Below are positions 4,264-19,636 of a DNA stretch of 64,000 bases, one piece after another (position 1 is the stretch's first letter; every line of letters starts with the position of its first letter). Location of the stretch: NCBI GenBank assembly GCA_902384795.1, contig CABMDC010000012.1:1-64000 (forward strand), in the 5' to 3' direction. Both the position numbers and the translations under genes were made by a program. Below the pieces are notes generated by a model that saw nothing but the letters and a program-made list of their open reading frames with translations, did not search any database and was not told the origin of the DNA. This stretch comes from Candidatus Gugararchaeum adminiculabundum. GTDB taxonomy: Archaea > Micrarchaeota > Micrarchaeia > Burarchaeales > Gugararchaeaceae.

Positions 4264-4914
4264 ATGGAAAACTCCAAGGCTGCAAAAATCATTTACTCCG
4301 CGTTTGTTATTGTCCTTATCCTGTGGATTGCGAGCATTGTTGGCGCGGCGTATATTGCAAAAGGAGGGGATACGACCACGGCAGGAGTGATTTATGCGTT
4401 TCACCGGCCGCTGTGCCACCAGCTTCCTGAGAGGTCGATCTGCGTTTTTGATTCGGGAAGAATCGGGGAATGTGCACCCAATGGCGAGGCGCAGCTGGCG
4501 GGCGGGGAAATCGTTTATGCCGGGTTTGACCAATTCACCATGAGGCCGCGCGAAGTGGTCTGGCAGGATGGCGAGCGGGGTTATGAGTTTGCGGAATGCG
4601 CGCGCGATACCGCAATCTATGTTGGCGTGCTGCTTGGATTTTTGATTCTGCCGCTTATCAAAAAAATTGACTCGCTCTATGTGCCCAGGGTCTGGCCGCT
4701 TATTCTGGCGATGGTTCCGATCGGGATGGATGGCGGCACGCAGTTGCTGGGCTGGAGGGAGAGCACGGACACGCTCCGCATAATAACAGGATTGATTGTT
4801 GGAATCGTGCTCCCGTTTTACATCATGCCCATGGCGAACAGGCTCGCGCTTGGCTTATTTTCCAAAAAATCCGGGAAAAACGGTTCGGAAAAGATTAATA
4901 AGGAAGGGAAATAA
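4264..4914 (+). CDS. DUF2085-type membrane protein
   Basis: 216 residues. An N-terminal membrane helix (about 10-32) is followed by the signature HRPLCHQLPERSICVF, which matches the DUF2085 family of predicted membrane proteins. The spacing CHQ-PERS with further Cys residues suggests metal binding or disulfides facing outward. Three more hydrophobic segments follow (about 117-135, 140-160, 170-192), then a basic tail. Function of the family is not known. It abuts the dehydrogenase stop directly, so it probably shares that transcript. Confidence 0.75.
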   Translation: MENSKAAKIIYSAFVIVLILWIASIVGAAYIAKGGDTTTAGVIYAFHRPLCHQLPERSICVFDSGRIGECAPNGEAQLAGGEIVYAGFDQFTMRPREVVWQDGERGYEFAECARDTAIYVGVLLGFLILPLIKKIDSLYVPRVWPLILAMVPIGMDGGTQLLGWRESTDTLRIITGLIVGIVLPFYIMPMANRLALGLFSKKSGKNGSEKINKEGK

Positions 4915-4947
4915 TCACTTAACAAATAATTATTGAGAGGGATGATA

Positions 4948-5388
4948 ATGGCAGGATTCTTAGACCAGTTTAAGCCGTACAAGAATGACGGGGTTGCGGG
5001 CGGAATGCTCGGCGCTGTTTTCCTGGCGGCAACTCCGCTTTGCTGCATTGCGCCGCTGATTGGCGGGTTCCTTTCCACCATTATAATGCGCAGAAGCGGG
5101 GACAGGAGCGTAACCAATGACAGCGGAACACGGACAGGCGCGGTTGCGGGAATGGTGACTGCGTTCGCAGCGCTTCCCATAATGCTGGTCTGGAGCGTAT
5201 TCGGATTCTCCGCATTGGGGGAGCAGCTTGCGGTCGCCAATTCCAATCTTGGCTTCCTCGGGGGGAATGTCAGCGGGCTTTACGGAATTGTCGGAATTGT
5301 AGTTTACCTTATAGGCGCGGTGATACTCTTCCCGATTCTTGGGGCCATTGGCGGCGGAATTGGAGCGGCGTTGGCAAACAGGAAATAA
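4948..5388 (+). CDS. small polytopic membrane protein
   Basis: 146 residues from ATG 4948, chosen because GAGAGGG lies just upstream; TTG 4933 and ATG 4942 are in-frame alternatives. After a short polar start come Gly/Ala-rich hydrophobic segments: one with a CC pair (about 15-40), one near 60-85, and one near the C-terminus ending GGIGAALANRK. This resembles small glycine-rich archaeal membrane proteins of the DUF5518 kind, but I do not recognise it with certainty. The same-strand DUF2085 gene ends 33 bp upstream. Confidence 0.65.
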   Translation: MAGFLDQFKPYKNDGVAGGMLGAVFLAATPLCCIAPLIGGFLSTIIMRRSGDRSVTNDSGTRTGAVAGMVTAFAALPIMLVWSVFGFSALGEQLAVANSNLGFLGGNVSGLYGIVGIVVYLIGAVILFPILGAIGGGIGAALANRK

Positions 5389-5648
5389 GAGCGTACCGTG
5401 TTTACCAGAGCCGCTCTTATGAGTTTCAGAATACAAAGCGAAACTGGCAAACGGATGGATGAAGGACTCGCGCGGCAAAGCGCGCTCGCCTTCATCCTAA
5501 AATACGATTATAGAATGGAGAAGAATAAAATGAAACCTTCCAACCGTAGCTTAGTACCGGGCATTGATTCGGCAATCATATCGGGGGAGGGTCAGGAGGA
5601 ACCTCAAACTGGGGAGGGGCGCTCCCCTCCGCGGTTCGGAATGATGCT
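5389..5648 (+). other. structured intergenic region before tyrA
   Basis: 260 bp with two strong hairpins. One is at 5457-5497 (outer arms GGATGAAGG/CCTTCATCC, inner arms CGCGC/GCGCG). The other is at 5613-5630 (GGAGGGG/CCCCTCC, four-base loop), ending 18 bases before the tyrA ATG. An 84-codon frame (5398-5652) crosses it and ends with TGA overlapping the tyrA ATG, but its composition does not look like a protein. It may be a structured leader, a small RNA, or terminator plus leader. Confidence 0.5.
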
Positions 5649-6953
5649 ATGAAAATAGCGATTATCGGCGGAAGCGGGGAGTTTGGAAGCTTCTACGCGA
5701 AACTTTTTCAGGAAGCCGGCTTTGATGTGACCATTACTGGAAGGGACCAACAAAAGTGCAAAAAAGTCGCGCGCGAAAACGGGGTGAAGTGCGCGGGCTC
5801 GAATGCCGAGGCGTGCGCGGATGCGGATGTGGTGATTATTTCTGTTCCCATTAAGGAAACGGTCAGCGTTGCCAAGGAAATTGCGGAAATCGCGCCCAAG
5901 GATTGCCTATTGATGGATTTTGCCAGCGTGAAAGTCCCGGTTGTGAAAGAGCTGAAAAAGGCGAAGTGCTCGGAAATTGCCGGCTGCCACCCGATGCATG
6001 GGCCGCGGATTTCCAGCCTCGCTGGGCAATCGGTAATTTTTGTGCCCGTGAAAAAAGGCGGGAAATACGAGAAGATTGTGAAATTCTTTGCTGACCGGGG
6101 CGCGCGGATTTTTGAAACCACTGCCGAGGAGAACGATAAGATTTTGGGAATGGTACAGCTGCTCACGCACTATGTGTATATTGCAACCGCCTCCACTGCG
6201 CGCGCGCTGGATATTGATGTGAAGAAATCAAGGAAATTCGCAAGCCCGATTTATGAAATGACCATTGACATGATTGCGAGGATCATCGGGCAGAATCCCT
6301 ATTTGTACGCGCAGATTCAGATGAGCAACCCCTATTCCAGGGAAGTGCACGAGGCTTTCATAAAAGAGGCGCAGAAGCTCGCCAAGGCCGTGGAGGAGAA
6401 TAACGAGGGGGAATTCGTCAAAATAATGAAGAATGCCGCAACGCACTTCGGAAATTTCGAGGATGCCATGGCGCGCAGCGACAAGCTGATTGATGCGCTG
6501 AACGAGGAAATCAGGGAGTTGAAGGGGAGCGTTGGCAGCGAGGTTGTGCTTCAGAATATTTATTCTGGAACGGTGCACGAGGGGAGATTGGCCAGCGTTG
6601 ATCCGGAATTTGTTGAATTGGAAGTGGGAAAGAAAAAAAGCAAAATCAAGAGCTCGAACATCAGATTGCTTTCCGGCGAGAAATTGCGCGAATGGAAAAT
6701 GAACGATGCGGTGAGCAGGGATTACTCGTTCGTTTTCGAAAAATGCGATGCCAAGGAGGTGGTTGCCTGCGCGCAAAATATTGATGGGGAAAATGGCGAC
6801 ATCCTGCAGGTAAAGGCGATTGACGAGTATGCGCTGGATGGCGGGAAAAAGAGCGTCACGCTTAGGTTCTGGTTTTACAAGAATGCGGACGTCAAGGGGC
6901 TGGAGAGGAAGGTGCTGGCCAGGTTTGCGGGGATAGGGGCGAAACAGAGGTAA
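5649..6953 (+). CDS. tyrA: prephenate dehydrogenase, archaeal two-domain form
   Basis: 434 residues. Residues 1-165 form a Rossmann fold (GGSGEFG start) that binds NAD(P). GCHPMHGPR near 115 is the TyrA active-site region, where His binds the prephenate hydroxyl. Residues about 165-285 form the helical dimerisation domain. The enzyme oxidatively decarboxylates prephenate to 4-hydroxyphenylpyruvate for tyrosine. The last ~145 residues are an extra domain also found in long archaeal TyrA proteins: a small beta-rich part (VVLQNIYSGTVHEGRL) and a ferredoxin-like end (VTLRFWFYKNADVKG), perhaps regulatory. No aro genes are nearby. The start follows the structured region; the ribosome-binding site is weak. 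Confidence 0.82.
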   Translation: MKIAIIGGSGEFGSFYAKLFQEAGFDVTITGRDQQKCKKVARENGVKCAGSNAEACADADVVIISVPIKETVSVAKEIAEIAPKDCLLMDFASVKVPVVKELKKAKCSEIAGCHPMHGPRISSLAGQSVIFVPVKKGGKYEKIVKFFADRGARIFETTAEENDKILGMVQLLTHYVYIATASTARALDIDVKKSRKFASPIYEMTIDMIARIIGQNPYLYAQIQMSNPYSREVHEAFIKEAQKLAKAVEENNEGEFVKIMKNAATHFGNFEDAMARSDKLIDALNEEIRELKGSVGSEVVLQNIYSGTVHEGRLASVDPEFVELEVGKKKSKIKSSNIRLLSGEKLREWKMNDAVSRDYSFVFEKCDAKEVVACAQNIDGENGDILQVKAIDEYALDGGKKSVTLRFWFYKNADVKGLERKVLARFAGIGAKQR

Positions 6954-6979
6954 AGGAGCTGGTGGGACAAAAGTAAATC

Positions 6980-6987
6980 TTTAAATT
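6980..6987 (+). promoter_or_regulatory. TATA box for the gene at 7012
   Basis: TTTAAATT centred about 28 bp before ATG 7012. With a TATA-to-start distance of ~25 bp the transcript would be essentially leaderless; no ribosome-binding site precedes the ATG. Confidence 0.6.
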
Positions 6988-7011
6988 AGAGTTCCACTGA
7001 AATCCTAGGCT

Positions 7012-8475
7012 ATGTACAAAAAACTCTCATTTGCAGTATTGGCATTAGTACTGATTAGTACAGCGGTTTTCGGGGGCTGGGCGGAAAGGCTCAAGGTTGA
7101 AGTGACAGGGAACAACAGCATTCCGATTTCCGATGTGGACGTAAAAGTGACCCACCAGTGGAGCGACTACCTGAGCAGGTGCGACTCAAAACTCACCGGA
7201 AAAACGGACGAGAACGGAATCTATGAAACCCAGGTGTTGAACGAGGTCGTGACACCGGATGAATGTGTTTACAGCGGGACTTTCATCTGCAGGATGTCGG
7301 ACCCGTGCCTGGAAGTGTTTTACCAGATCGCGGTGACAGCGCCAGGGGTCAGCAGCGAACCTATTCTCACTAAATTCGGCTGGGGAAAAGATGCGGACGG
7401 GGTGCATATTGAGAGATTCAGATCCACCAGCGCTTACCAGCGGGTGAACGTCACGGTAAAAAACCAGATCGGCCTGCCGATTTACAATGTGACAGTGAAG
7501 ATAACCGGCCCGATCCAGGCGACCAAATTTACTGATGAAAACGGGCAGGTGAAATTCACTGCCCAGAAGAGCTCCCAGGTGATTGTGGGAGTTGTGCAGG
7601 GAACAAAGACGACCGAATACAGGCAGACTGTTGGAACCCATGACATTGAGATACCGGCCATGGTTTTCCAGTTTGACGGAACTTTGATGATCAGGGTGGT
7701 GGGCGAGGACAAGGTGGCGGCGGAAAATGCCGAAGTGGCCATAGCCTATGGAAATGAAACCCAGGTCGGAAGCACTGATGACCAGGGTGTTGTCGAGTTC
7801 AAGGATGTAAACGCCCTGGACAGCATCGCCATTTCTGCAAGGCTCAATGACATTACGCTGAATAAGACGATAAAATTGGACAATGTGAGCGAAAGCGACC
7901 TGGTTTTCTTCTTTGAGAACCCGACCAGGTTCAGCAATGTGAGCGCCAAGGAGAGCGGGTGCAATGTGACGTTCTACGCGAATTTGCAGAGCCCCAGGTC
8001 AAAGGAGGAGGCGCTGAAGGCGAAAGTTGAATACAACACTTCCGAGGGGGAAGTCGGAACCATTGACATGAACTGGAATGGAAGCGTTTTCTCTGCGGCC
8101 AAGTGCATTAACACCTCGACTGTCCAGTGGAAAGTGAGCGCCCAGGATAGTTATGGCACAAAGAACTCCGCTTCCATGGCGCTTAATCATACCATGACCG
8201 GAACGGGGATACAGGGGGGAAACCAGGGTGGGAATCAGGGGCAACAGGGAACAGGAAAAGTGAATAACAGCCAGGGGGCGGGGATAGTCCAGCAGCTGGC
8301 AAAGGAAACCGGCTCCGAAGCAACCGCCTATGCGGTGATAATCTCCATCATACTGGTTGTGATAATCTCCATTGTGGCGGTCGGGATACTTTTCACAGGC
8401 TCCAAGAAAAGAAGCGGAGGAGAAAGCTCTGACCTGGGCGGGATGCTAAGGCTTAGGAGAAAGGATGAGTTCTGA
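7012..8475 (+). CDS. secreted, membrane-anchored Ig-like repeat protein
   Basis: 487 residues. A signal peptide (positive MYKK then a hydrophobic run to about residue 21) is followed by several beta-sandwich modules of the carboxypeptidase-regulatory/Ig kind. Repeated elements are V-VTGNNSIPISDVDV, NVTVKNQIGLPIYNVTV and MIRVVGEDKVAAENAEV, each followed by D-x-G. A Gly/Gln/Asn-rich linker leads to one membrane helix at about 440-463 and a short basic cytoplasmic tail. Many N-x-S/T sites suggest glycosylation. It is probably a surface or S-layer-associated protein. The next gene overlaps by 11 bp, so they are co-translated. Confidence 0.75.
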   Translation: MYKKLSFAVLALVLISTAVFGGWAERLKVEVTGNNSIPISDVDVKVTHQWSDYLSRCDSKLTGKTDENGIYETQVLNEVVTPDECVYSGTFICRMSDPCLEVFYQIAVTAPGVSSEPILTKFGWGKDADGVHIERFRSTSAYQRVNVTVKNQIGLPIYNVTVKITGPIQATKFTDENGQVKFTAQKSSQVIVGVVQGTKTTEYRQTVGTHDIEIPAMVFQFDGTLMIRVVGEDKVAAENAEVAIAYGNETQVGSTDDQGVVEFKDVNALDSIAISARLNDITLNKTIKLDNVSESDLVFFFENPTRFSNVSAKESGCNVTFYANLQSPRSKEEALKAKVEYNTSEGEVGTIDMNWNGSVFSAAKCINTSTVQWKVSAQDSYGTKNSASMALNHTMTGTGIQGGNQGGNQGQQGTGKVNNSQGAGIVQQLAKETGSEATAYAVIISIILVVIISIVAVGILFTGSKKRSGGESSDLGGMLRLRRKDEF

Positions 8476-8995
8476 TCCCATGAAATTCGGACTGGCCGCA
8501 AAATGCATGGTTCTTTCGTTTTTTGTATTTTCTTCTTTCCTTATTTTCGGATGTTGCAGCATTTCCAAGGCCTCGGGCGAGGTGTGCCCGCGCCTGGGTG
8601 ACATAGAGGACAGGGAAGCGTGCTGGACCGGATTTGCCATCGCGGCAAAAGATGCGGTCGGATGCCTGAAGATTGAAACCCAGCAGACAAAGGTGGGCTG
8701 CTTTACCGGAGTGGCCGCGGTTAAAAAGAATTCCACGGTTTGCACCGATTATCTTGACGGGGCGGAAAGCGACAGCTGCGTTATCGGGGCTGCGACCACT
8801 GCGAAGAATGAGGCCATGTGCGCCGGAGCCGAGGATTTGGCAGTGAGGAGCGCGTGCCCGAGCATGGTTGAGGCTTCGATAAACGGCGATGAAAAGGCGT
8901 GCCTGAAGATTGAGCGCGTTGATTTGAAGACCGCCTGCGTGAAAGGGATTCTTGAAGCGAAAAAGGCAAAGGATTCCGCATTTAATTTCGGCTAG
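8465..8995 (+). CDS. lipoprotein with paired-cysteine repeats
   Basis: 176 residues from ATG 8465; ATG 8480 would give a tighter signal peptide. A hydrophobic segment ends in IFGCC, a lipobox-like site for lipid attachment. The mature part holds about six short helical units, each with two Cys roughly 15-20 residues apart (CPRLGDIEDREAC, CLKIETQQTKVGC, CTDYLDGAESDSC, CAGAEDLAVRSAC, CLKIERVDLKTAC). This pattern suggests a stack of disulfide-braced helical hairpins. I do not recognise a named family. The upstream surface protein overlaps it, so the two may form one envelope complex. Confidence 0.7.
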   Translation: MSSDPMKFGLAAKCMVLSFFVFSSFLIFGCCSISKASGEVCPRLGDIEDREACWTGFAIAAKDAVGCLKIETQQTKVGCFTGVAAVKKNSTVCTDYLDGAESDSCVIGAATTAKNEAMCAGAEDLAVRSACPSMVEASINGDEKACLKIERVDLKTACVKGILEAKKAKDSAFNFG

Positions 8996-9006
8996 AAAAA
9001 TAAGCG

Positions 9007-9786
9007 CTATAAAATAAATTTGCCTTTTTGGAATTCGCGCAAAATCACTTTTGCAGCCTCAAAAGTCGAGGCTTCGCCCCCTTTTTGCAGGAATCCCCTG
9101 CGCCTGGCGATTGATTCCAGAACCTTGTTAGCATCTGTGCTGATTGGAACCCGGTAGAAATGGAAAATCTCGTCATTGTTGGAATTGATGAAATTTTGGA
9201 TCAGCGTGAGCGCCAGTGATTCCGGGTCCGGGACGTTCTCTGCCGAAATTGCGCCCTTGAGCGCGATTGCTCCTTTTTTCTCCTCGAAATTCACCACACC
9301 CGGGGTGTCGCACAGGAAAATGTTCTGGTTTGCGATCTTGATCCAGTTGGATGAGCGCGTGATGCCAGGGAGGAAACCTGTTTTTGCGGCCTGTTTTCCG
9401 GTAAACGCGTTTATGAAGGAAGATTTGCCCACATTGGGAAAGCCGAAAACCACGATGCGTATTTCCCCGCCTGCCGGCTTTCTGGCGAGCTTTTCGCGCG
9501 CAGATGCGAGGACGGCATTTTTGAAGGCTGGAATTCCCTGCTTGGTCTTTGAGGAGATGAAAAAGCACCTTTGCTTGTCCGGGAGAATGAGGATGGATTT
9601 GAATTTCTCGCTGATTAAATCGCTCTTGTTTATGGCAAGGAACATTTTCTCGCGCATCCTCCTGTCGAAATTGAGAACTCTCGTTCCCTGGATGTCGCGC
9701 GCATCAAGCACCTCTATGGCTATGTCCGAGTCTGAGAGGAATTTCGCTATTTTCGGAAAATTGATTTTCTTGCGCAGTAGTGGCAT
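9007..9786 (-). CDS. circularly permuted GTPase of the YlqF/RbgA-YawG type
   Basis: 259 residues from ATG 9786 (MPLLRKK), chosen because a minus-strand TATA box (9808-9816) lies ~25 bp upstream; a longer frame to 9858 lies beyond it. GTPase motifs occur in permuted order: NKSD (G4) about residue 54, then GFPNVGKSS (G1) about 120, PGITRS (G2) and DTPG (G3). This order defines the family that matures ribosomal subunits or acts in nucleolar-type assembly. Short archaeal members such as this are usually annotated as GTPases of unknown ribosomal target. Confidence 0.85.
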   Translation of the reverse strand: MPLLRKKINFPKIAKFLSDSDIAIEVLDARDIQGTRVLNFDRRMREKMFLAINKSDLISEKFKSILILPDKQRCFFISSKTKQGIPAFKNAVLASAREKLARKPAGGEIRIVVFGFPNVGKSSFINAFTGKQAAKTGFLPGITRSSNWIKIANQNIFLCDTPGVVNFEEKKGAIALKGAISAENVPDPESLALTLIQNFINSNNDEIFHFYRVPISTDANKVLESIARRRGFLQKGGEASTFEAAKVILREFQKGKFIL

Positions 9787-9807
9787 AGAGGAATTTTGGC
9801 TGGGATG

Positions 9808-9816
9808 ATATAAATA
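9808..9816 (-). promoter_or_regulatory. TATA box for the permuted GTPase
   Basis: TATTTATAT on the minus strand, 22 bp before ATG 9786; indicates a leaderless transcript and argues against the longer frame. Confidence 0.6.
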
Positions 9817-9860
9817 GGGAAGGAATGGGTTAAATACACGTGAGTTCATAAAAAACAACT

Positions 9861-10547
9861 ATGATGAAGGGCAGAATTGTGTATGCACGGAATGCAATGC
9901 TTACGGACTATGGCACTAAGAGAGTAACGGAGCTTTACGCAAAATATGATGCGGCAACTATTGTACATATTCCCGGTATTGCTATCCATGGAACGACTAC
10001 GGGCTTCTTGAAGAAAAATGAGAATAGAATGAAAGACTATTTAAAACAGCCAAAAAAGCATAGAACTTTATTTTCGGACATGGAAGCAACGCAGAAAGCC
10101 ATGCCCTCTGGCCATGCATTCTTTCTGAGTGGAAAGTTTTTGGAGGAGATGCCACCTGAAGAGTTTTTTGAACGCCTTGCGATATCTGCGATTTCAGTCG
10201 CCAAATTCGCAGTGGGCTATGCCCAAAAAAACACTGGAAGCTGGATTGGCACTGAAAAGGATAGGCCAGCAGTGATTATTTTGATAAAAACAGGCGAATT
10301 GGAATTTCGAAAAGTTATGCAGTCAGAAATAGTTAGCTGCTTTAAGAGTGGTTATAAAGAATTTGATTCGATAAGGGGTAAAGTCGAGCAGTTCGTTCTG
10401 GATGAAAAGAAACATGCAAATGCCGATGACTCTTGCGCACTAGTCATCGATAAATTTGCGATAGCGATAGTCGAGCGCATATTTGAGATCGCAAAAGAGA
10501 ATGCCCAGGGAAAAATGCGTATGCGGGAGCCGCTTACGGATAAATAG
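9861..10547 (+). CDS. conserved-looking protein of unknown function
   Basis: 228 residues. TTAAATA at 9830-9836 lies ~25 bp before the tandem ATG ATG, so the mRNA is probably leaderless; the second ATG (9864) is an alternative start. The sequence is soluble, with alternating strands and helices (ATIVHIPGIAIHG, AVIILIKTGEL, FVLDEKKHAN, CALVIDKFAIAIVERI). There is no signal peptide or membrane segment. I recognise no family. The convergent FttA gene ends one base from its stop. Confidence 0.6.
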   Translation: MMKGRIVYARNAMLTDYGTKRVTELYAKYDAATIVHIPGIAIHGTTTGFLKKNENRMKDYLKQPKKHRTLFSDMEATQKAMPSGHAFFLSGKFLEEMPPEEFFERLAISAISVAKFAVGYAQKNTGSWIGTEKDRPAVIILIKTGELEFRKVMQSEIVSCFKSGYKEFDSIRGKVEQFVLDEKKHANADDSCALVIDKFAIAIVERIFEIAKENAQGKMRMREPLTDK

Positions 10548-10548
10548 A

Positions 10549-12453
10549 TTATTGCAGCCTAATCGCGTCCAGATTCATCGGCGCCCGGGATTCGAGGTTC
10601 AGGTACCTTGAAAGCGCGCGCGAAAGATCGTCGCACTTGGTCTCATCCCCGTGGCAGGTGAAAATCCTCTCAGGCTTGGGCGAAAGGTGCTTGGCAAAGC
10701 TCACCAATTGCAAACGGTCGGAGTGGCCGGAGAATCCTTCCACTGTTTCAACGCGCAGGTTGATTTTCATGGTGTTGATCCTTCCGTCGTCCCCGAGTGT
10801 CGGGATTTCCTTCAGCCCGCGCTGAATCTTTCTTCCCAATGAGAGCGAACTCTGGTAGCCTACGAACAGCAGTGCGCTGTTCGGGTCTTCTGCAAGCATT
10901 TTCAGGAATTCTAGCGAAGGGCCTCCGGAAAGCATTCCTGCCGGCGCGAGCAAAATTGCGGGCGGGCCGGCAACGATTTCCTTCCTGTCCTGCTTCACTG
11001 GCTCGAAAATCTTGCTTTCAAACGGTGAATCATTGGATAGAATCCTGCGCTGCACATTGTGCTTCAGGTATTCAGGATAGGCGGTGTGGATTGCGCTTGC
11101 CTCCAGCACCATTCCGTCTATGTAAACAGGAACATTCACGTCCTTGAGGTTCGGGTTGATTTTGAATTGCTCCTCTAGAACCAGCATGAGCTCCTGGGCA
11201 CGGCCCACTGCGAAAACCGGAATCAGAACTTTGCCGCCTTTCTTTATCACTTCGGCGCAGATGTCGCCGATGCGGTTTTCCGCATCGTTCCTCTTGGGCG
11301 AAATATCGTTTGCGCCGCCGTAGGTGCTTTCCATGAATAATGTTTCAAGCCTTGGGAAGCGGTTGTGGCAGTTGTCAAACAATTTCGTGAATCCGTATTT
11401 CATGTCCCCGGTGTAGACCAGATTGTGAAGCCCCTCGCCGATGTGCAAATGCACCATGGATGAGCCGAGTATATGGCCCGCATTGTGGAACGTGAGTTTT
11501 ATTTCGCTGGAAATGTCCGTGACCTCCTCGTAATCGCGCACAATCATCCTGCTCATCATTTTGCGCACATCGTTCTTGGTGTAGGGGCAGGTCATGCCCG
11601 GGGTCTTGTTCAAAATGTCGACGTAATCGAACTGAAGCAGGACTGCGAGGTCGCGCGTTGGCGGGGTGCAGTAGATCGGCCCGTCGTACCCATAGGCATA
11701 CAAATAGGGAATGAAACCGCAGTGGTCCAGGTGGGCGTGGGTTAAAATGACCGCGTCCAATTGCTCAAGCGAAAGGTTCATGGCGTTCAGGTAGGGGAAG
11801 CTCTTCTGCGCGTCAGTGGATTCTGGATTGATGCCGCAGTCGATCAGAATCTTGTCATTGGGGGTTTGCACCAGCATGCAAGTTCTTCCCACTTCCTTGA
11901 AGCCGCCTAGTGCCGTAACTTTCACCCAGTCGCTTTTTGCCGCTGGGATTGAGCTGATCTTTTTTCCGAGCGTGACCAGGAATTTTTTCCTGTCACCTGA
12001 TTCTTTTATGAGCGCGTCGCGCACTCCGCGGATTGTGCGCGAAGGCATTGTAGGGGTTCGGAGAATCTTTGGGGTCCAGCTTGTCCTGGTGATTATCTGC
12101 TTCAGGGTCATTCCGCCTTTGCCGATTACCAGGCCTGGCTTCATTGCCTCGATGTTCACTTCGCAGAAATCCGCGTTGAACGCTAGGTTGTTTATGCCTG
12201 CCTCGGGCGGGACCACTGATTCGATTATCTTTTTGGCTTCCTCCGCCGGAAGCAGTGAAGAGGGATCGCTGCGGATGATGATGCGCTTCCTCAATGCCGC
12301 GGCCAGCTTGCGGATGAGGTTTTCATCTGCATAGAAGCTCTGGATGCTTCGCATGTACACTACCACGTCCGGGCCTTCGAATTCCAATTTTGTGAACTGG
12401 CATGCAGCCGGAAGCAGTTCAGAAACTTTTTTCTCCATTTCTTTTATAGTCAA
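10549..12453 (-). CDS. fttA: FttA/aCPSF1 transcription-termination ribonuclease
   Basis: 634 residues, the usual length. Two N-terminal KH domains (about 1-145; the second has GLVIGKGGMTLK) precede a metallo-beta-lactamase domain with LTHAHLDHCGFIPYL as the HxHxDH zinc motif, which is interrupted by a beta-CASP domain (STYGG, PVFAVGRAQELM). The C-terminal part carries further metal ligands (GYQSSLSLGR, FSGHSDRLQL). In archaea this enzyme, a relative of CPSF73, cleaves nascent RNA and triggers transcription termination. The start is TTG 12453 with GAGGAG five bases upstream; ATG 12438 is the alternative. Confidence 0.93.
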   Translation of the reverse strand: MTIKEMEKKVSELLPAACQFTKLEFEGPDVVVYMRSIQSFYADENLIRKLAAALRKRIIIRSDPSSLLPAEEAKKIIESVVPPEAGINNLAFNADFCEVNIEAMKPGLVIGKGGMTLKQIITRTSWTPKILRTPTMPSRTIRGVRDALIKESGDRKKFLVTLGKKISSIPAAKSDWVKVTALGGFKEVGRTCMLVQTPNDKILIDCGINPESTDAQKSFPYLNAMNLSLEQLDAVILTHAHLDHCGFIPYLYAYGYDGPIYCTPPTRDLAVLLQFDYVDILNKTPGMTCPYTKNDVRKMMSRMIVRDYEEVTDISSEIKLTFHNAGHILGSSMVHLHIGEGLHNLVYTGDMKYGFTKLFDNCHNRFPRLETLFMESTYGGANDISPKRNDAENRIGDICAEVIKKGGKVLIPVFAVGRAQELMLVLEEQFKINPNLKDVNVPVYIDGMVLEASAIHTAYPEYLKHNVQRRILSNDSPFESKIFEPVKQDRKEIVAGPPAILLAPAGMLSGGPSLEFLKMLAEDPNSALLFVGYQSSLSLGRKIQRGLKEIPTLGDDGRINTMKINLRVETVEGFSGHSDRLQLVSFAKHLSPKPERIFTCHGDETKCDDLSRALSRYLNLESRAPMNLDAIRLQ

Positions 12454-12598
12454 AAAAACTCCTCAAAAATTTTCTAGTATTATTTTCTATTTTCTAGTAT
12501 GATGGTTATGGACACACTATTTAGTCGCCCAAAAACCGCGCTCTGGTTGCGCGGATTGCTGTTTTGTTGTTTGTTCGGTTTGCAATCAATTTGCTTGT
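12454..12598. other. AT-rich spacer between fttA and psmB
   Basis: 145 bp without a gene. It contains two copies of ATTTTCTAGTAT 22 bp apart (from about 12468) and a GC hairpin near 12537-12558 (CCGCGC/GCGCGG), which could act as a psmB terminator or part of the fttA leader. Confidence 0.35.
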
Positions 12599-13696: not shown

Positions 13697-13705
13697 GGCA
13701 TCCCG
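13697..13705 (+). repeat. target-site duplication, left copy
   Basis: GGCATCCCG directly outside the left inverted repeat; repeated exactly at 19628-19636 in the same orientation. The match even continues three bases (AGC) because the left repeat begins with AGC. Confidence 0.85.
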
Positions 13706-13721
13706 AGCTTTGCTACTAAAA
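13706..13721 (+). repeat. left terminal inverted repeat
   Basis: AGCTTTGCTACTAAAA; exact reverse complement of 19612-19627. Confidence 0.88.
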
Positions 13722-13738
13722 GGGCGAAAATCACGGGT

Positions 13739-13771
13739 ATTAGGAGCAAGTGAGGGAATTTAGGAGCAAAA
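13739..13771 (+). repeat. left subterminal repeats
   Basis: Two copies of the motif (T)TTAGGAGCAA at 13740-13749 and 13759-13771, about 20 bp apart. They match the right-end repeats in direct orientation, although the left terminal repeat itself is inverted. Probable transposase-binding sites. Confidence 0.7.
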
Positions 13772-13775
13772 CTAT

Positions 13776-14297
13776 CTAGCGATTCTGATAAGAATACCGC
13801 GCTTTTTTAAGCGTATATGTTTTCCAAAATTCGTCTATTATTTCCAAAGCTTCTGTCCCTGCTTTAATTCGCGCACTAGTTAAACCTTTTAGATGTGGAT
13901 TTTGTGCATATGTTTCTTTTTGCTCTGGAGAAGTAAAAATATGGCAACTATACGGAGTTTTATTTGCTAACCAAATAGCATAGAATATACGCCTACAAAA
14001 TAAGTCATCTGTAGGATGAGTTTCTTCTGGTAGCACCTCTTTCACTGAATCATGAATATATGTTTCTTCTTTAAATGCAGCACGTAAATAGTTTTCATTC
14101 ATATTTTTTTGTTCAAGTAAGTCTTTTACATCAAAATCAAGCATTATATTATGGTCTCCTTTATGTTCTTCTGAACTACTTTTTATGAACATTAATTTTT
14201 TGAAGCCACTTATTTTTGAATTTTGTTCAGATGCCAAAAGCCATTTTACAAAATATTTATCACAAAGAATACGGGAAGAATATCTGGTTCGCACCAT
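13776..14297 (-). CDS. unknown island protein, possible toxin of a TA pair
   Basis: 173 residues, codon use AT-rich like the rest of the island. It begins 4 bp after the stop of the 88-residue gene upstream, so the two form a tight operon. Soluble, mixed charge; central DLLEQKNMNENYLRAAFKEE and a C-terminal helical part with Tyr/Lys. I see no PIN, RelE or HEPN active-site pattern that I would trust. The small-gene-then-larger-gene layout inside a mobile element resembles toxin-antitoxin or abortive-infection pairs; that role is inference only. Confidence 0.5.
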   Translation of the reverse strand: MVRTRYSSRILCDKYFVKWLLASEQNSKISGFKKLMFIKSSSEEHKGDHNIMLDFDVKDLLEQKNMNENYLRAAFKEETYIHDSVKEVLPEETHPTDDLFCRRIFYAIWLANKTPYSCHIFTSPEQKETYAQNPHLKGLTSARIKAGTEALEIIDEFWKTYTLKKARYSYQNR

Positions 14298-14301
14298 GCA
14301 C

Positions 14302-14568
14302 TCACTGAAGTTCTTTAATAAGTAATTCGTCTGTAACGATTTCTACAGAAAGTATTTTAGTGAATGAACCTATCTCTTTGCTTACTTTGAGTAATTCTCC
14401 TTTTGGAGCTTCAAGAATTTTCTTCTTCAATTCTTCACTACAAGTAACATCAGCATTTACTTTAATAAATTCCTGCACATCCTCTGTTAAATCAATATCC
14501 ACAATTTTGACTGCCATTCTAATCGCCAATTTACTTATTTGACCAAACTTGTATTTATCAATTCCCAT
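14302..14568 (-). CDS. small acidic partner protein, possible antitoxin
   Basis: 88 residues, ATG 14568. Start MGIDKYKFGQISKLAIRMAV, then an acidic central part (DIDLTEDVQEFIKV) and alternating Lys/Glu helices. A TATA-like TTTATAAATG about 45 bp upstream gives a short leader. First gene of a two-gene operon; the partner begins 4 bp after its stop. Size, charge and position fit an antitoxin or immunity protein, but no DNA-binding fold is obvious, so the function is not known. Confidence 0.5.
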   Translation of the reverse strand: MGIDKYKFGQISKLAIRMAVKIVDIDLTEDVQEFIKVNADVTCSEELKKKILEAPKGELLKVSKEIGSFTKILSVEIVTDELLIKELQ

Positions 14569-14615
14569 ATCTTCTTACGTCGAAAGAACACTCTGTAACT
14601 GAATGAACCATACAT

Positions 14616-15821
14616 TTATAAACCTTTCGTCTTTCTAAAATTACTCTCAAACTCAATCTTTACTCCCAGTTCAAAGCTCTCATGTATCAGCACAACAATA
14701 TTATGGGCTATGAACTTGCAGAGCAGTTCATTCTCCCGCGCTACCTTGTTCTTGCTCCTCACCTTGTCCCCGAACTTAGCCTTTACCATGTTAAAGGTAG
14801 ATTCCACATTGCTCCTCTTGTGGTAGTGCTGGTAAAACTCCTCCTGATTCAGTTGGAAATACAGGAACATCTTTCTCCACAGCATAGAACCGCCAGCCTT
14901 GCCCGTTGAGTTGGATTTAAACGGGATATAGGCTTGTCCCCCTGCCTCTTTCACAGCCTTGTAGTTATCACGGCTGGAATACGCTTTATCGGCTGATACT
15001 TCATTCATTGTAAAACCCTGTTCATGCGTTGTAGCCACAAGAGGGGCGAACTGCGGGCAGTCTGCGCCATTCTCCGCAGTTACCTCAATCGCAGTAACCA
15101 CATTGGTTTTTACCCCTGTGCAGATATGCGCCTTAATCCACTGGTGCGACCTGTTAAGCTCGTATTTGTCCTCAGCGTATTCTCCGAAGCTTCTGGTGCG
15201 GAAGCCTGAGCTATCCACTGCAAACTGTGTTTCTACTGCTTTCAGGGGCAGAGCAGAGAGGACTATCAGTTCGTGAAGGATAGGGGTTAAATCAGCCTGA
15301 TTAAGCAGTTTGTTTATTGCGTTGTAATTCGGAGTTTTGCTTATCTGTTCCTTGCCTTCTGCGTTCTTGTAAAGGGAGTATGCCCGTCTGCTAGACAACT
15401 GCGAATAAACCTTCTGTATGGCGCAGAAAACGCTTTCATTCAGGCTTAAACGTGGTCTGCCCCTGCCCTGCTCAGGCTCTTCTATCCCGTTCACTAAGTC
15501 CATTAGAAGCTCATCAAACATCTTTACCTCGCTGTTTTGAGCCTGTGTGTAAGCTTTCCATGCTTGGGGTCGGGAAATGCGCTTTTCCTTCACTACCTTG
15601 CCCTGCGGGGTGTCTATTTCGGTTTTGAGGTAGTAGCGGACAGCATAGGCGTGCTTGCAGGTTGTCTTTCGTTTCTGGCTGTCCGGGCAGGTGCATGAGA
15701 ACATCTCATCCACGATATAGAATCCATCCTCAGACTGCGAAGGAACTCTCCAGCCGTCGGTGGTTTTCTTTATCTTCCCTTCCCGTGCGATTTCCATTCC
15801 TCTTATTTGCCTCATTTCCAT
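14616..15821 (-). CDS. DDE transposase with N-terminal SWIM zinc finger
   Basis: 401 residues from ATG 15821 (AAGGAG nine bases upstream; a TTG at 15830 is less likely). Residues about 40-65 hold a SWIM zinc finger, CTC then CKH ten residues later. The rest is a transposase of the IS4/IS5 superfamily: first Asp in FAVDSSGFRTRS, second in VSADKAYSSRDNY, Glu in KRSNVESTFNMVKAKFG, which is the expected DDE triad. It is full length with all three acids, so it is probably active. It has no inverted repeats of its own that I can find; the nearest pair are the island ends, so it may mobilise the whole island. Confidence 0.82.
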   Translation of the reverse strand: MEMRQIRGMEIAREGKIKKTTDGWRVPSQSEDGFYIVDEMFSCTCPDSQKRKTTCKHAYAVRYYLKTEIDTPQGKVVKEKRISRPQAWKAYTQAQNSEVKMFDELLMDLVNGIEEPEQGRGRPRLSLNESVFCAIQKVYSQLSSRRAYSLYKNAEGKEQISKTPNYNAINKLLNQADLTPILHELIVLSALPLKAVETQFAVDSSGFRTRSFGEYAEDKYELNRSHQWIKAHICTGVKTNVVTAIEVTAENGADCPQFAPLVATTHEQGFTMNEVSADKAYSSRDNYKAVKEAGGQAYIPFKSNSTGKAGGSMLWRKMFLYFQLNQEEFYQHYHKRSNVESTFNMVKAKFGDKVRSKNKVARENELLCKFIAHNIVVLIHESFELGVKIEFESNFRKTKGL

Positions 15822-15874
15822 ACCAATCAACTCCTTAACTACATAACTACTTATCTATATATGAACCTACAAGC

Positions 15875-15883
15875 TTATAAATA
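15875..15883 (+). promoter_or_regulatory. TATA box of the RHH/RM operon
   Basis: TTATAAATA ends 20 bp before ATG 15903; the transcript would start at or within a base or two of the ATG. Confidence 0.65.
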
Positions 15884-15900
15884 GATATGTTGTTATCTAT
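15881..15900 (+). promoter_or_regulatory. palindromic operator overlapping the promoter
   Basis: ATAGATA-N6-TATCTAT, a perfect 7-bp inverted repeat beginning inside the TATA box and ending just before the ATG. TATCTAT recurs at 15852-15858. The position would block TBP/RNA polymerase, and the first gene of the operon is a ribbon-helix-helix protein, so autoregulation is likely. Confidence 0.6.
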
Positions 15901-15902
15901 AT

Positions 15903-16067
15903 ATGGCAGTTTTGAACCAAAACCTACCCGATGACCTCACGAGCAAATTCAACGAGGCAGCACGGGAAAAATTCGGCGATAAGAAGGGCTGCAAAAGAAG
16001 CGCACTAATCGAAGCTATTGGAGACTGGCTAAAAAAAGAGAAGATTACTAACAAGGTGAAAAAATGA
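15903..16067 (+). CDS. ribbon-helix-helix regulator of the RM operon
   Basis: 54 residues, ATG 15903. A short N-terminal strand (AVLNQNLPDDL), helix 1 (TSKFNEAAREKFG) and helix 2 (KRSALIEAIGDWLKKE) give the MetJ/Arc ribbon-helix-helix pattern of small DNA-binding dimers. The stop codon overlaps the methylase start (ATGA), so translation is coupled. By position it acts like a control (C) protein of a restriction-modification system, or as an antitoxin-like repressor, binding the palindrome on its own promoter. Confidence 0.75.
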   Translation: MAVLNQNLPDDLTSKFNEAAREKFGDKKGCKRSALIEAIGDWLKKEKITNKVKK

Positions 16068-17851
16068 GCAAGGAGAAGCACGATTCTATTTTTATGAGGA
16101 ATGTCCAGCGAGGGATAGACAAGGGAATAATCACGGTAACAGATGACGATTCAAAAATAACCTATCATTGCAAGAGGGATTATTCTGTTTCTTTCAAAAA
16201 TCCCGAGGAAAAAGTAAGGGCTTCCTATTTCTGTGAGCTTGTTTTGGATTACGATTACCCCACCAAAAATATTGATATTGAGGTTACTGTCCCAAGAAGA
16301 ACGCCAGAAGACAGGGCGGACATAGTTGTTTACGAGGAGGGGGGGGGCGAATATCTAGTTATCGAATGTAAAAAAGACGGAATTACTGATGCAGAATTTA
16401 AGCAGGCGATTGAGCAGGCTTTTGGGAACGCTAACAGTTTGAGGGCGAAGTTTGCTTCTGTTGTTGCAGGAATTACCAAGACAGCTTTTGATGTTTCGGG
16501 CTTTAAGCAAAGTGAAAGAGAAAAAAATGTTATTTCTGATATTCCTAAAAAATACGGGAAAACCCCGAAATACAAGTTTATCAAAGGGGATAAAGACAAG
16601 GACTTAAAAGAAGTTTCAAGAGAGGAATTAATCAGGGCTTTGGAGAAATCCCACGACACGATTTGGCAGGGGGGTAAATTAGCCCCGACCACTGCCTTTG
16701 ATGAAGTGTCAAAATTGCTTTTCTGCAAATTGAGGGATGAAAAAACAACGGAAAAAGGCGAAACTTACAACTTTCAGATTGGAACGCACGAAACAGCCGA
16801 AGAAGTTTTTGAGAGAGTGAACGCAATTTATCTAGAAGCCAAAAAAGAAGACGCAGAAGTCTTTAAGGAAGATATTAGGCTAGACCCAAAAATCGTATAT
16901 AACGTCGTTGAACACTTGCAGGAGTTGGCGATTAACAAGATTGATTTAGACACCAAAGGAGTGGCATTTGAGAGGTTTATGGAGGACTTTTTCAAAGGAA
17001 AGATGGGGCAATTTTTCACTCCAAGGGAGATAATCTCCTTCTGCATTAAAATGATGGAGATAAAGAAAAGCGATTTGGTGATAGACCCTGCCTGTGGCTC
17101 TGGCGGATTTCTGCTTAACACCCTTGACACGATTAGGAAGTCGGTTGAAGGGAGTTATGACGAAAAAGACGCATGGGGGCACTGGCACAAATTCGCCATG
17201 AATAACCTTTATGGAATCGAGATAAACGACCAGATAGCCAGAATCTGCAAAATGAACATGATTATCCATGATGACGGGCACACGAATGTTATCAGCACGG
17301 ATTCGTTGAGGAATATTGATGAGATTACGAAAATCCACAAGGAATTCAAGAAGAATCATTTTGACATTCTCCTGACAAACCCGCCATTTGGAGCAACAGT
17401 AAAATCAACGGAAAAAGATTATTTAGGCAAATACGAATTAGGCGAAGGAAAAAAGAACCAGCAAACAGAGATACTGTTTATAGAAAGATGCCTGGAATTT
17501 TTGAACGAGGGAACTGGCAAAATGGCGATAGTTCTCCCTGATGGAGTTTTAACAAATTCTTCTCTGCAATACGTCAGGGATTTCTTAATGGAAAAAGCGC
17601 AGATTCTGGCGGTTGTTTCACTGCCACAGTTTGCCTTCTCTCATTTTGGAGCCGGAGTAAAAAGTTCTCTCGTTTTTGTAAGAAAAAAGGAAAACAAAGA
17701 AAAGACAGGCGATTACCCGATTTTTATGGCGATAGCTGAACACATTGGCTACGACGCAACTGGAAGAAAAGACCAGACAAATGATTTGAATACGATATAC
17801 GACGAATACCAGAAATTCAGAGAAAACCCGAAAAATTACAAAGGCTGTTAG
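16064..17851 (+). CDS. hsdM: nuclease-methylase fusion (HSDR_N + HsdM)
   Basis: 595 residues. The N-terminal ~180 residues resemble the nuclease domain at the start of type I R subunits: D86 in RADIVVY, then E101-C-K103 in VIECKK, a complete PD-(D/E)xK site. From about 200 on it is an N6-adenine DNA methylase of type I M-subunit form, with the SAM motif DPACGSGGF at 341-349 and the catalytic NPPF at 439-442. No helicase-motor gene lies nearby. Nuclease plus methylase in one chain with a separate S subunit is the BcgI (type IIB) plan. A G9 tract at 16339-16347 lies between the two halves of the nuclease site. It overlaps the RHH gene by 4 bp. Confidence 0.82.
   Translation: MSKEKHDSIFMRNVQRGIDKGIITVTDDDSKITYHCKRDYSVSFKNPEEKVRASYFCELVLDYDYPTKNIDIEVTVPRRTPEDRADIVVYEEGGGEYLVIECKKDGITDAEFKQAIEQAFGNANSLRAKFASVVAGITKTAFDVSGFKQSEREKNVISDIPKKYGKTPKYKFIKGDKDKDLKEVSREELIRALEKSHDTIWQGGKLAPTTAFDEVSKLLFCKLRDEKTTEKGETYNFQIGTHETAEEVFERVNAIYLEAKKEDAEVFKEDIRLDPKIVYNVVEHLQELAINKIDLDTKGVAFERFMEDFFKGKMGQFFTPREIISFCIKMMEIKKSDLVIDPACGSGGFLLNTLDTIRKSVEGSYDEKDAWGHWHKFAMNNLYGIEINDQIARICKMNMIIHDDGHTNVISTDSLRNIDEITKIHKEFKKNHFDILLTNPPFGATVKSTEKDYLGKYELGEGKKNQQTEILFIERCLEFLNEGTGKMAIVLPDGVLTNSSLQYVRDFLMEKAQILAVVSLPQFAFSHFGAGVKSSLVFVRKKENKEKTGDYPIFMAIAEHIGYDATGRKDQTNDLNTIYDEYQKFRENPKNYKGC
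16339..16347 (+). repeat. G9 homopolymer inside the nuclease-methylase gene
   Basis: Nine G in a row encode the glycines of EEGGGEY between nuclease residues D86 and E101. Such tracts slip during replication, and a change in length would frameshift the gene; it stands out in an otherwise AT-rich reading frame. Confidence 0.7.
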
Positions 17852-17852
17852 A

Positions 17853-19238
17853 ATGGAATGTTTCACAGTTTATAGAAATGAGATTGAGAGAAGAATAGAC
17901 CCACATTATCTGTTAAATAAAAATATCCTAGAAAAATCAGAAACCAAATTTAGGTTAGCAGAATTAGGGAGTATTTTAAAAAAACCAGTTCAATATGGCG
18001 CGAATGAGAGTGCAATAGAAGGTAATCCCAAAACGGATACTAGATACATCAGGATAACTGACATAGATAGTTTTGGAAATCTTAAAGATGATGATTGGAA
18101 AACAGCACAGAAAATAGACGATAAATATACGCTTGAGGATGATGACGTATTATTTGCAAGAAGCGGAGCAACTGCTGGAAAATGTTTTATTTATAAAAAA
18201 GATTATGGAAAATCTATATTCGCAGGGTATTTAATCCGTTTCATTTTTGATACGAAAAAAGTAAATCCAAAATATGTTTTTTACTACGCTCAGCAAGAGC
18301 GTTACAAACTTTGGGTTAATTCTATCCAAAGACCATCGGGACAGCCAAACATTAATTCCGAAGAATTCAAATCCTTCAAAATCCCTCTGCCCCCGTTAGA
18401 GTTCCAAAACAAAATAGTCAAATTGATGGAAAATGCCTATTCTAAAAAGAAACAAAAAGAAATTGAAGCCCAACAACTTATAGATTCGCTAGACGATTAT
18501 ATCCTCCAAGAGTTAGGAATAGAACTGCCCGAATTAAAGAATAAGATGGTTTATGTTGTGAATTCTGAGGAAATTACAGATAAACGATGCGATGCGTATT
18601 ATTTCCAGCCGAAATTTGAAGAAGTCGAGAAAGCGATTAAGAAAGGAAAGTATAAGTCTGTTTTTTTGAAAGATATTGCGGAAGAAATTTTAAGTGGACA
18701 AAGACCGAAAGGCGGAGTTAGGCAAATTTCAGAAGGTATCCCAAGTCTAGGCGGAGAGCATGTTTTAGATGATGGTTCAATAGAAGCACATGATTTGAGA
18801 TTTATCCCTTTTGATTTTCATAAATCTCATTTAAAGAGTAAAGCGCAGAAAAAAGACATAATCATTGTTAAAGATGGAGCAACAACTGGGAAGGTTGGCA
18901 TCATCCCAGAGAACTATCCACATGCGGAGATAAATATTAACGAGCATGTTTTTTTGATAAGATGTAAAAAAGAAATTGAGCCATACTTCTTATTCTCTTT
19001 ACTTAAATCCAGTTTCTGTCAATTACAGATAAACCGAGAAATAACTGGTGGCACTATCATGGGGATAATAAGAAAATCCATCGAAGATACTGAAATCCCT
19101 CTTCCGCCTCTTGCTGTTCAGAATAAAATAGCTGCCGAAGTTAAGGCAAAAATGCAGAAAGCCGAGCAATTACAGAAAGAAGCCAAAGAAGGGCTAGAAA
19201 AAGCTAAAAAAGAAGTTGAAAGTTTGATTTTAGGCTGA
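17853..19238 (+). CDS. hsdS: type I-like specificity subunit
   Basis: 461 residues; begins 1 bp after the methylase stop. Two target-recognition domains (about 20-165 and 240-410) each end in the typical IPLPPLEFQNKI / IPLPPLAVQNKI motif. They are separated and followed by helical spacers rich in Lys/Glu/Gln (KKKQKEIEAQQLIDSLDDY and the C-terminal coiled coil from about 420). Each domain should read one half of a split DNA site for the neighbouring nuclease-methylase. The two domains differ from each other, predicting an asymmetric recognition sequence. Confidence 0.88.
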   Translation: MECFTVYRNEIERRIDPHYLLNKNILEKSETKFRLAELGSILKKPVQYGANESAIEGNPKTDTRYIRITDIDSFGNLKDDDWKTAQKIDDKYTLEDDDVLFARSGATAGKCFIYKKDYGKSIFAGYLIRFIFDTKKVNPKYVFYYAQQERYKLWVNSIQRPSGQPNINSEEFKSFKIPLPPLEFQNKIVKLMENAYSKKKQKEIEAQQLIDSLDDYILQELGIELPELKNKMVYVVNSEEITDKRCDAYYFQPKFEEVEKAIKKGKYKSVFLKDIAEEILSGQRPKGGVRQISEGIPSLGGEHVLDDGSIEAHDLRFIPFDFHKSHLKSKAQKKDIIIVKDGATTGKVGIIPENYPHAEININEHVFLIRCKKEIEPYFLFSLLKSSFCQLQINREITGGTIMGIIRKSIEDTEIPLPPLAVQNKIAAEVKAKMQKAEQLQKEAKEGLEKAKKEVESLILG

Positions 19239-19263
19239 AATTTTATGAGCAAACGGGATAAAA

Positions 19264-19566
19264 GTGGTTACAAAAAAATCGTTTGGTAAAAAATTTTCCA
19301 TAGTCGTTACTAACATAGTTGCCACCTCTGCGGTTGATTTTCAGGTTGATTTGAATAAATTCGCAGAACTCAATGGGTTTACGATTGATGAAGATTATCC
19401 AATAGGAGTTCACTGCCGAAGCGATAAAATTGCAGGAATAGTAACTGTTTTCCGCACTGGAAAAATGATTAGTGTTGGAAGTCGAACAATCGAGCAGACC
19501 AAGAAAAACCTAAGTTTTATTCAAAATCTCCTGAAAGAGCAGAGAAAACAGCTAGAAATCATCTAA
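19264..19566 (+). CDS. single-repeat TBP-like protein
   Basis: 100 residues, GTG 19264, 25 bp after hsdS. The sequence follows one repeat of TATA-binding protein: a first strand IVVTNIVATSAVDFQVDLNK, then the GVHCRSDKIAGIVTVFRTGKMISVGSR hairpin region, then the helix IEQTKKNLSFIQNLLKE. The TGKMISVGS core corresponds to the SGKMVCTGA element of archaeal TBP. A complete TBP has two such repeats; this protein has one and would have to dimerise to form the DNA saddle. Single TBP-fold repeats are known in some glycosylases and RNase HIII. Its place at the end of the RM operon suggests DNA binding or promoter control. Confidence 0.68.
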   Translation: MVTKKSFGKKFSIVVTNIVATSAVDFQVDLNKFAELNGFTIDEDYPIGVHCRSDKIAGIVTVFRTGKMISVGSRTIEQTKKNLSFIQNLLKEQRKQLEII

Positions 19567-19573
19567 TTTTCGA

Positions 19574-19607
19574 TTTTAGGAGCAACTTTAACCTTTTAGG
19601 AGCAAAA
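19574..19607 (+). repeat. right subterminal repeats
   Basis: TTTTAGGAGCAA at 19574-19585 and TTTTAGGAGCAAAA at 19594-19607, followed by the related terminal repeat TTTTAGTAGCAAAGCT. The spacing of 18-20 bp places the sites about two helical turns apart, as expected for an array bound by transposase. Confidence 0.72.
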
Positions 19608-19611
19608 CCGA

Positions 19612-19627
19612 TTTTAGTAGCAAAGCT
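19612..19627 (+). repeat. right terminal inverted repeat
   Basis: TTTTAGTAGCAAAGCT, the exact complement of the left end at 13706-13721. Confidence 0.88.
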
Positions 19628-19636
19628 GGCATCCCG
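19628..19636 (+). repeat. target-site duplication, right copy
   Basis: GGCATCCCG directly abutting the right inverted repeat; same as 13697-13705. Confidence 0.85.

Follow-up and report, generated by a model that had tools for sequence, protein, structure and literature searches.

The window analysed here is a 64,000-nucleotide stretch of contig CABMDC010000012.1 (positions 1 to 64,000) from the micrarchaeon Candidatus Gugararchaeum adminiculabundum, and we found that its island at positions 13697 to 19636 is a real jumping element and a member of a large transposon family in DPANN archaea. The best explanation of the data as a whole, to which we give a probability of about 0.9, is a DDE transposon in which passenger genes are a regular feature, with ends that would be read by one segment of the transposase and with cargo that would be exchangeable. 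A sequence-only reading had proposed a transposon-like island with restriction-modification (R-M) cargo, and this is borne out by a further 48 elements delimited here, which share its transposase, its ends and the 9-bp duplication.

The boundaries given in that reading were correct to the base (Table 1): the 16-bp inverted ends are perfect and lie within a perfect 9-bp direct repeat, and an unbiased scan of the region around the transposase, for any inverted repeat with a direct repeat next to it, gave this pair a score of 25 and the next, unrelated pair 15. Its descriptions of an AT-richer interior (GC 0.389 within the element versus 0.502 in the flanks) and of one DDE transposase plus six other genes, running outward from one divergent region at about 15831-15902, three leftwards and four rightwards, also hold, and Pfam matches agree with its gene calls (DDE_Tnp_1 and SWIM, HSDR_N_2 and N6_Mtase, Methylase_S, one TBP repeat). 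The host is a metagenome-assembled genome (MAG) of 1.47 Mb in 26 contigs, 93% complete, in which a search for a second copy of the element found none.

Relatives of the transposase were sought in near relatives of the host, in genomes of its phylum, in a second phylum and in IMG/VR, and elements were delimited around them by script. They occur in Micrarchaeota, where the nearest named relatives of the window transposase lie, in Aenigmatarchaeota, in one Methanocellaceae MAG and, distantly, in some bacteria. Among near relatives of the host 34 of 98 have one; in the window's phylum they occur in 61 of 301 genomes, and in the second phylum (that of L003, an Aenigmatarchaeota MAG) in 21 of 156. 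A further 22 loci lie on IMG/VR contigs, whose hosts are unassigned. A first round covered 33 places, representing 32 distinct elements (loci L041 and L105 hold the same one), a second round added six, and a further 11 have perfect duplications with shorter arm matches, giving 49 distinct elements from Micrarchaeota, Aenigmatarchaeota and IMG/VR contigs. Their ends read [A/G]GC(T/C)TTG, and all 49 are flanked by a 9-bp duplication, perfect in 48 and with one mismatch in L095. Lengths range from 2571 to 9284 bp (median, 4729), none of the 49 is free of cargo (a bare form would measure ~1.4 kb), and a search for bare copies by end motifs near the transposase, with no duplication required, found none. 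Three different family transposases (L083, L087 and L102) lie on one 122.8-kb contig that is classed as viral (IMGVR_UViG_3300037083_000054).

The sequence-only reading had proposed looking for empty sites and for copies at other loci, and relatives of the window element provide both. The two copies of the element shared by L041 and L105 match at 100% along 3729 + 1908 bp; the genomes that hold them belong to two families, the DNA around the copies is unrelated, and the duplications differ (GTACAGAGT and AGTTTTACC). The L105 insertion point sits between genes reading like Nop5 and TFB, and in a sister species (G221) the sequence runs straight across this point, the element being absent. The L041 copy (3754-12503) holds ~3.1 kb more inside than L105, bounded by a 662-bp duplicated stretch, and this surplus might be a nested insertion, recombination or an assembly effect. 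Cargo has been swapped between related elements: L038, L040 and L106 show 81-84% identity in their transposase genes and 84-86% in the outer 60 bp but carry unrelated cargo, and between the window element and L002 the corresponding values are 75% and 84%, again with unrelated cargo. Insertion points fall within open reading frames (ORFs) of at least 90 amino acids (aa) in 13 of 41 cases, compared with 32 expected from ORF coverage, a deficit that may reflect selection, and no target consensus is visible across the 9-bp duplications.

The window transposase matches DDE_Tnp_1 (Pfam E 5e-24) and an N-terminal SWIM finger (E 2e-5); the SWIM finger lies at residues ~45-64, a helical segment at ~134-181, for which a structure model gives helices at 147-159 and 169-176, and the core residues are D206, D281 and E343. 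The motif Y(2)R(3)E(6)K, here at Y336, is kept in 48 of 49 transposases, and the SWIM motif C.C...C.H is present in 40. A fold search of the transposase gave nothing beyond the general RNase H-like DDE fold (P element, TnsB, integrases), a sequence search found no relative of solved structure, and the nearest NCBIfam model is IS5 (NF033579), at 123.6 bits under a cut-off of 140. Just upstream of the transposase stands a divergent ORF of 43-117 aa in 45 of the 49 elements, some of which will be chance; these small genes, classified mostly by pattern, are of at least four kinds, namely, ribbon-helix-helix (RHH)-like, zinc-ribbon, MazE/AbrB-like (a significant call in L149) and an unnamed "GTFRV" kind, and they probably repress or otherwise regulate the adjoining transposase.

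The ends of the family are built from short words. At the left end (LE) the terminal word is followed by two more direct copies in ~20-bp steps, at the right end (RE) by two inverted copies lying ~34 and ~54 bp inwards, and the two array types are swapped in a few elements (L115, L116, L150 and L151). Words such as TTTGCTCCTAAAG, TTTGCACCTAAAG, TTTGTATAAATAG and TTTGCAACGCAAT vary between elements and repeat within each (TTTGCTACTAA and TTTGTTGAATA are two end words of the family): with a copy counted at no more than three mismatches of 11, subterminal regions hold on average 2.97 copies of their own word but 0.88 of a word taken from another element, and in shuffled subterminal DNA the mean is 0.35. 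The recognition code described here is a co-variation among related elements, in which word distance over the six central bases was correlated with distances in parts of the transposase. The correlation was 0.54 with the middle part, 0.27 with the core and 0.11 with the N-terminal SWIM part, and given the core, the partial correlation was 0.48 for the middle (0 of 2000 permutations) and 0.01 for SWIM. This test rules out the SWIM finger as the reader of the word, and the finger would contribute some other function. At residue 147, 24 of 24 TTTGC elements have S, G, T or Q and 15 of 15 TTTGT elements have L or C, and this residue predicts one end base in 39 of 39; residues 95, 154, 169, 170, 173 and 177 track the following word bases (these residue numbers are those of the script minus 4). 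The co-variation leads us to suggest that the helical segment may bind the end word directly.

The cargo is dominated by predicted R-M systems and is exchangeable between related elements. In the 38 elements first scanned (ORFs of at least 100 aa), DNA methyltransferases of the N6, N4/N6, D12 and C5 types account for 27 of 119 cargo ORFs versus 1 of 143 flanking ORFs (Fisher p 1.6e-9), and they are found in 25 of these 38 elements and in 30 of the 49 overall. Their restriction partners include MamI-like proteins (three elements), a BstXI-like one, HSDR_N_2 and an HNH protein, and other cargo includes AIPR/AbiU (L040), SocA-like and NYN proteins. Since the best PDB match of the 595-aa fusion in the window element is RM.BsaXI (E 1.3e-44), we call its nuclease-methylase and specificity genes a predicted BsaXI/BcgI-like R-M pair; the nuclease-methylase sequence also shows the motifs ADIVV..IECKK, DPACGSGGF and NPPF. 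The arrangement resembles that of Type IIB/IIG systems (BsaXI, BcgI) in joining a nuclease-methylase fusion to a separate specificity subunit, whereas here the pair lies inside a transposon and is followed by a gene for a single-repeat TATA-binding protein (TBP).

It might be asked whether these are ordinary insertion sequences of the IS5/IS903 type that occasionally transport passengers and have no special tie to cargo or defense. IS903 makes a 9-bp duplication and forms the ends of Tn903, and it is a single-gene insertion sequence without cargo or iterated subterminal sites. The family shares with IS903B the DDE_Tnp_1 core, Y(2)R(3)E(6)K and the GGCTTTGTTGAATAAAT end, and IS5 is, as stated, the nearest NCBIfam model; the IS903 end GGCTTTGTTGAATAAATC is nearly identical to the end of L116, the recognition residues match, and the family profile finds IS903B at E 3e-19. 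However, the 322-aa transposase of IS903B has no SWIM finger and is 20% identical over 240 aa, the family ends are asymmetric multi-site arrays, the cargo is non-random, and bare copies are missing although short elements should be the easiest to find. We regard this explanation as unlikely and assign the family to the IS5/IS903 group only in part, as fold, motif and ends agree while the model score lies below the cut-off and a compact single-gene form is not seen. That an R-M island was moved here by recombination, an integrase or a plasmid, with edge repeats arising by chance, is scarcely credible, and we count it as refuted. R-M islands often do move horizontally by many routes (PMC4176335), but the same ends and 9-bp duplications surround the same transposase at 49 loci, many elements have no R-M genes, and no integrase or conjugation gene is found among the genes of the window element. 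Either relatives with the same genes and no such ends or ends that are common unrelated sequence would, according to the sequence-only reading, have spoken against a transposon; the relatives carry these ends, and rather than being common unrelated sequence the ends stand next to this transposase together with 9-bp duplications.

As for the recognition code, related transposases do have common words, as the correlation with the core indicates, and the co-variation could therefore reflect shared ancestry only, with no residue of the segment contacting the word. This is distinctly improbable, as sliding windows locate the signal at residues ~147-186, where it survives correction for whole-protein distance, and on a tree that uses the remainder of the protein, residue 147 and the end base switch seven times, always together, compared with a single switch of the base on a tree of the segment (~134-181) itself. 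IS903B, which lies outside the family, fits as well, with a TTTGTTGAATAA end and with L and Y-S-C-V at the matching transposase places, like L116. With regard to the role of the cargo, it is quite possible, if somewhat short of an even chance, that the R-M systems are addiction modules that keep the element in its host and do not serve antiviral defense: R-M systems have been discussed as stabilizers of mobile elements (PMC4176335), and SocA_Panacea-type genes occur in two elements. The AIPR/AbiU gene of L040, another defense-like gene, argues the other way, and sequence alone cannot separate the two roles.

Several observations weigh against a DDE transposon with segment-read ends and exchangeable cargo. 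No transposition event was observed, and past mobility is read from sequence; the window copy is the only one in its genome, and no relative is close enough for its own insertion point to be compared with an empty site. Delimitation failed for about half of the transposase loci, many of which lie at contig ends, and the host genomes are nearly all MAGs, in which the family label of a single contig can be wrong. Nine of the 49 transposases have no recognizable SWIM motif. Finally, L044 (8791-11361) carries two different end words, one of which agrees with its recognition segment; its other end, like the C-terminal part of its transposase gene, resembles L113. This element is flanked by a perfect 9-bp duplication, its transposase gene looks recombinant with an L113-like element, and its mixed make-up suggests how modules get exchanged.

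Our results lead us to propose that a single transposase, composed of a SWIM finger, a helical segment and an IS5-type DDE core, would bind about six short sites, three direct ones at LE and one terminal plus two inverted ones at RE. The ends would then be paired and the element cut out or copied, with both modes considered, and inserted at breaks staggered by 9 bp, for the most part between genes. The helical segment, and not the SWIM finger, would read the word, such that transposase and ends act as a lock and key that switch as a unit, and the several sites may allow a multimeric complex that controls transposition. Everything between the ends would be exchangeable and is most often an R-M system, and such cargo could benefit both partners by making host and element resistant to other DNA and by stabilizing the element after transfer. 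Members of the family may be active. A stronger version of this proposal, which we hold to be probable with some reserve, is that these are obligate-cargo DDE transposons centered on DPANN archaea, that they act as a main carrier of R-M systems there, and that their swappable segment uses a residue-to-base code shared with IS903.

Tn7-like elements are likewise cargo transposons with arrays of transposase sites at their ends and with R-M systems as their commonest defense cargo (PMC8649781). They use several Tns proteins, whereas a single transposase is found here, and TnsA, TnsB and TnsC have no match among the window genes and none among the listed cargo families. The same 2021 survey reported no Tn7-like transposase in archaea and known immune systems in 26% of the Tn7-like elements (PMC8649781), compared with the methyltransferases in 30 of 49 elements noted above. 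The IS-like transposons of archaea are DDE elements too but are described as having one or two genes, and according to the same 2019 survey no passenger-carrying composite DNA transposons had been detected in archaea (PMC6563490). The window element, with one transposase gene and 16-bp ends, has no pair of flanking insertion sequences that would make it composite, and Cas1, the mark of a casposon, was not found among the window genes. In one laboratory study, transposition is reported to have moved an R-M system that was carried on a plasmid and linked to an insertion sequence (PMC3031569); there the R-M system was mobilized via a linked insertion sequence, and here a dedicated cargo element would do so. 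No published description of the transposase family was found in a search that had ISfinder, bioRxiv and most subscription papers outside its scope, and the family is apparently undescribed. To this extent the suggestion of an undescribed element type stands, while the particular gene set on which it was based does not define the type, since cargo differs in nearly every member; what defines it is its transposase together with the array at the ends and, for the majority of members, the small divergent gene next to the transposase.

Table 1. Features of the transposon at 13697-19636 (window positions)
Feature	Position	Strand	Basis or remark
Target-site duplication, left copy, GGCATCCCG	13697..13705	no strand	adjoins arm; inverted/direct-repeat search
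Terminal inverted repeat, RE (downstream of transposase), AGCTTTGCTACTAAAA	13706..13721	+	100% complementary
Two inverted end-word copies in RE (13740-13750, 13760-13770)	13740..13770	-	13759-13772 is repeat family D4
173-aa cargo protein, no assigned family	13776..14297	-	ORF; no relative in other elements
88-aa cargo protein, no family match	14302..14568	-	ORF
Transposase	14616..15830	-	first ATG ~15821; Pfam, motifs, structure model
Divergent intergenic region with TATA-like stretch	15831..15902	no strand	possible promoter/operator
13-bp direct repeats of divergent region, TTATCTATATATG	15851-15863, 15893-15905		repeat family D1
54-aa small protein, divergent from transposase, RHH-like by pattern	15903..16067	+	putative fold
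R-M protein, HSDR_N_2 nuclease fused to N6 adenine methyltransferase, 595 aa	16064..17851	+	Pfam
Specificity subunit, 461 aa, Methylase_S, two target-recognition domains	17853..19238	+	family searches
Single-repeat TBP-like protein, 100 aa	19264..19566	+	Pfam TBP E 5e-11
Two direct end-word copies in LE (19596-19606, 19576-19586)	19576..19606	-	19595-19608 is repeat family D4
Terminal inverted repeat, LE (upstream of transposase), TTTTAGTAGCAAAGCT	19612..19627	-	16/16 complementary to 13706-13721
Target-site duplication, right copy, GGCATCCCG	19628..19636	no strand	adjoins arm

For the smaller genes of the window element the first descriptions held only in part. The 173-aa and 88-aa proteins had been taken for a toxin-antitoxin-like pair, and Pfam and other family searches gave no usable match for either and no homology to a known toxin or antitoxin. 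The 54-aa protein fits the RHH pattern, as had been said, without a significant Pfam match. The gene described as half of a TBP does encode a single TBP repeat and is no truncated oddity: the only other TBP of the host is a 105-aa single-repeat protein (L185 1456-1773; C1:148754-148996 in its own genome), and TBP matches in the window's order are single-repeat frames of ~100-145 aa. In other Micrarchaeota, several genomes have two separate half-TBP genes and others a normal two-repeat TBP; a broken host gene is ruled out, since the TBPs of the host and of many Micrarchaeota are single-repeat.

Some cargo proteins recur among the elements. One of ~230 aa is found in L044 (10593-11297), L116 (8193-8900) and L130 (8039-8719), and another of 194-218 aa in L003, L123 and L126. 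L035 (11581-12726) and L115 (1791-2879) have in common a 360-380-aa protein, with no Pfam match in L035, and an adjoining partner of 102-173 aa, a candidate two-gene system, and short ORFs that by eye look like Vsr-like endonucleases lie near methyltransferase genes in L108 (12209-12583) and L131 (13188-13619).

With one transposase family in two phyla, whose delimited elements have a cargo dominated by R-M systems, our findings offer a concrete route by which archaea with tiny genomes could exchange their defenses. The natural variation of words and residues within this family makes the recognition of transposon ends directly testable by residue swaps.

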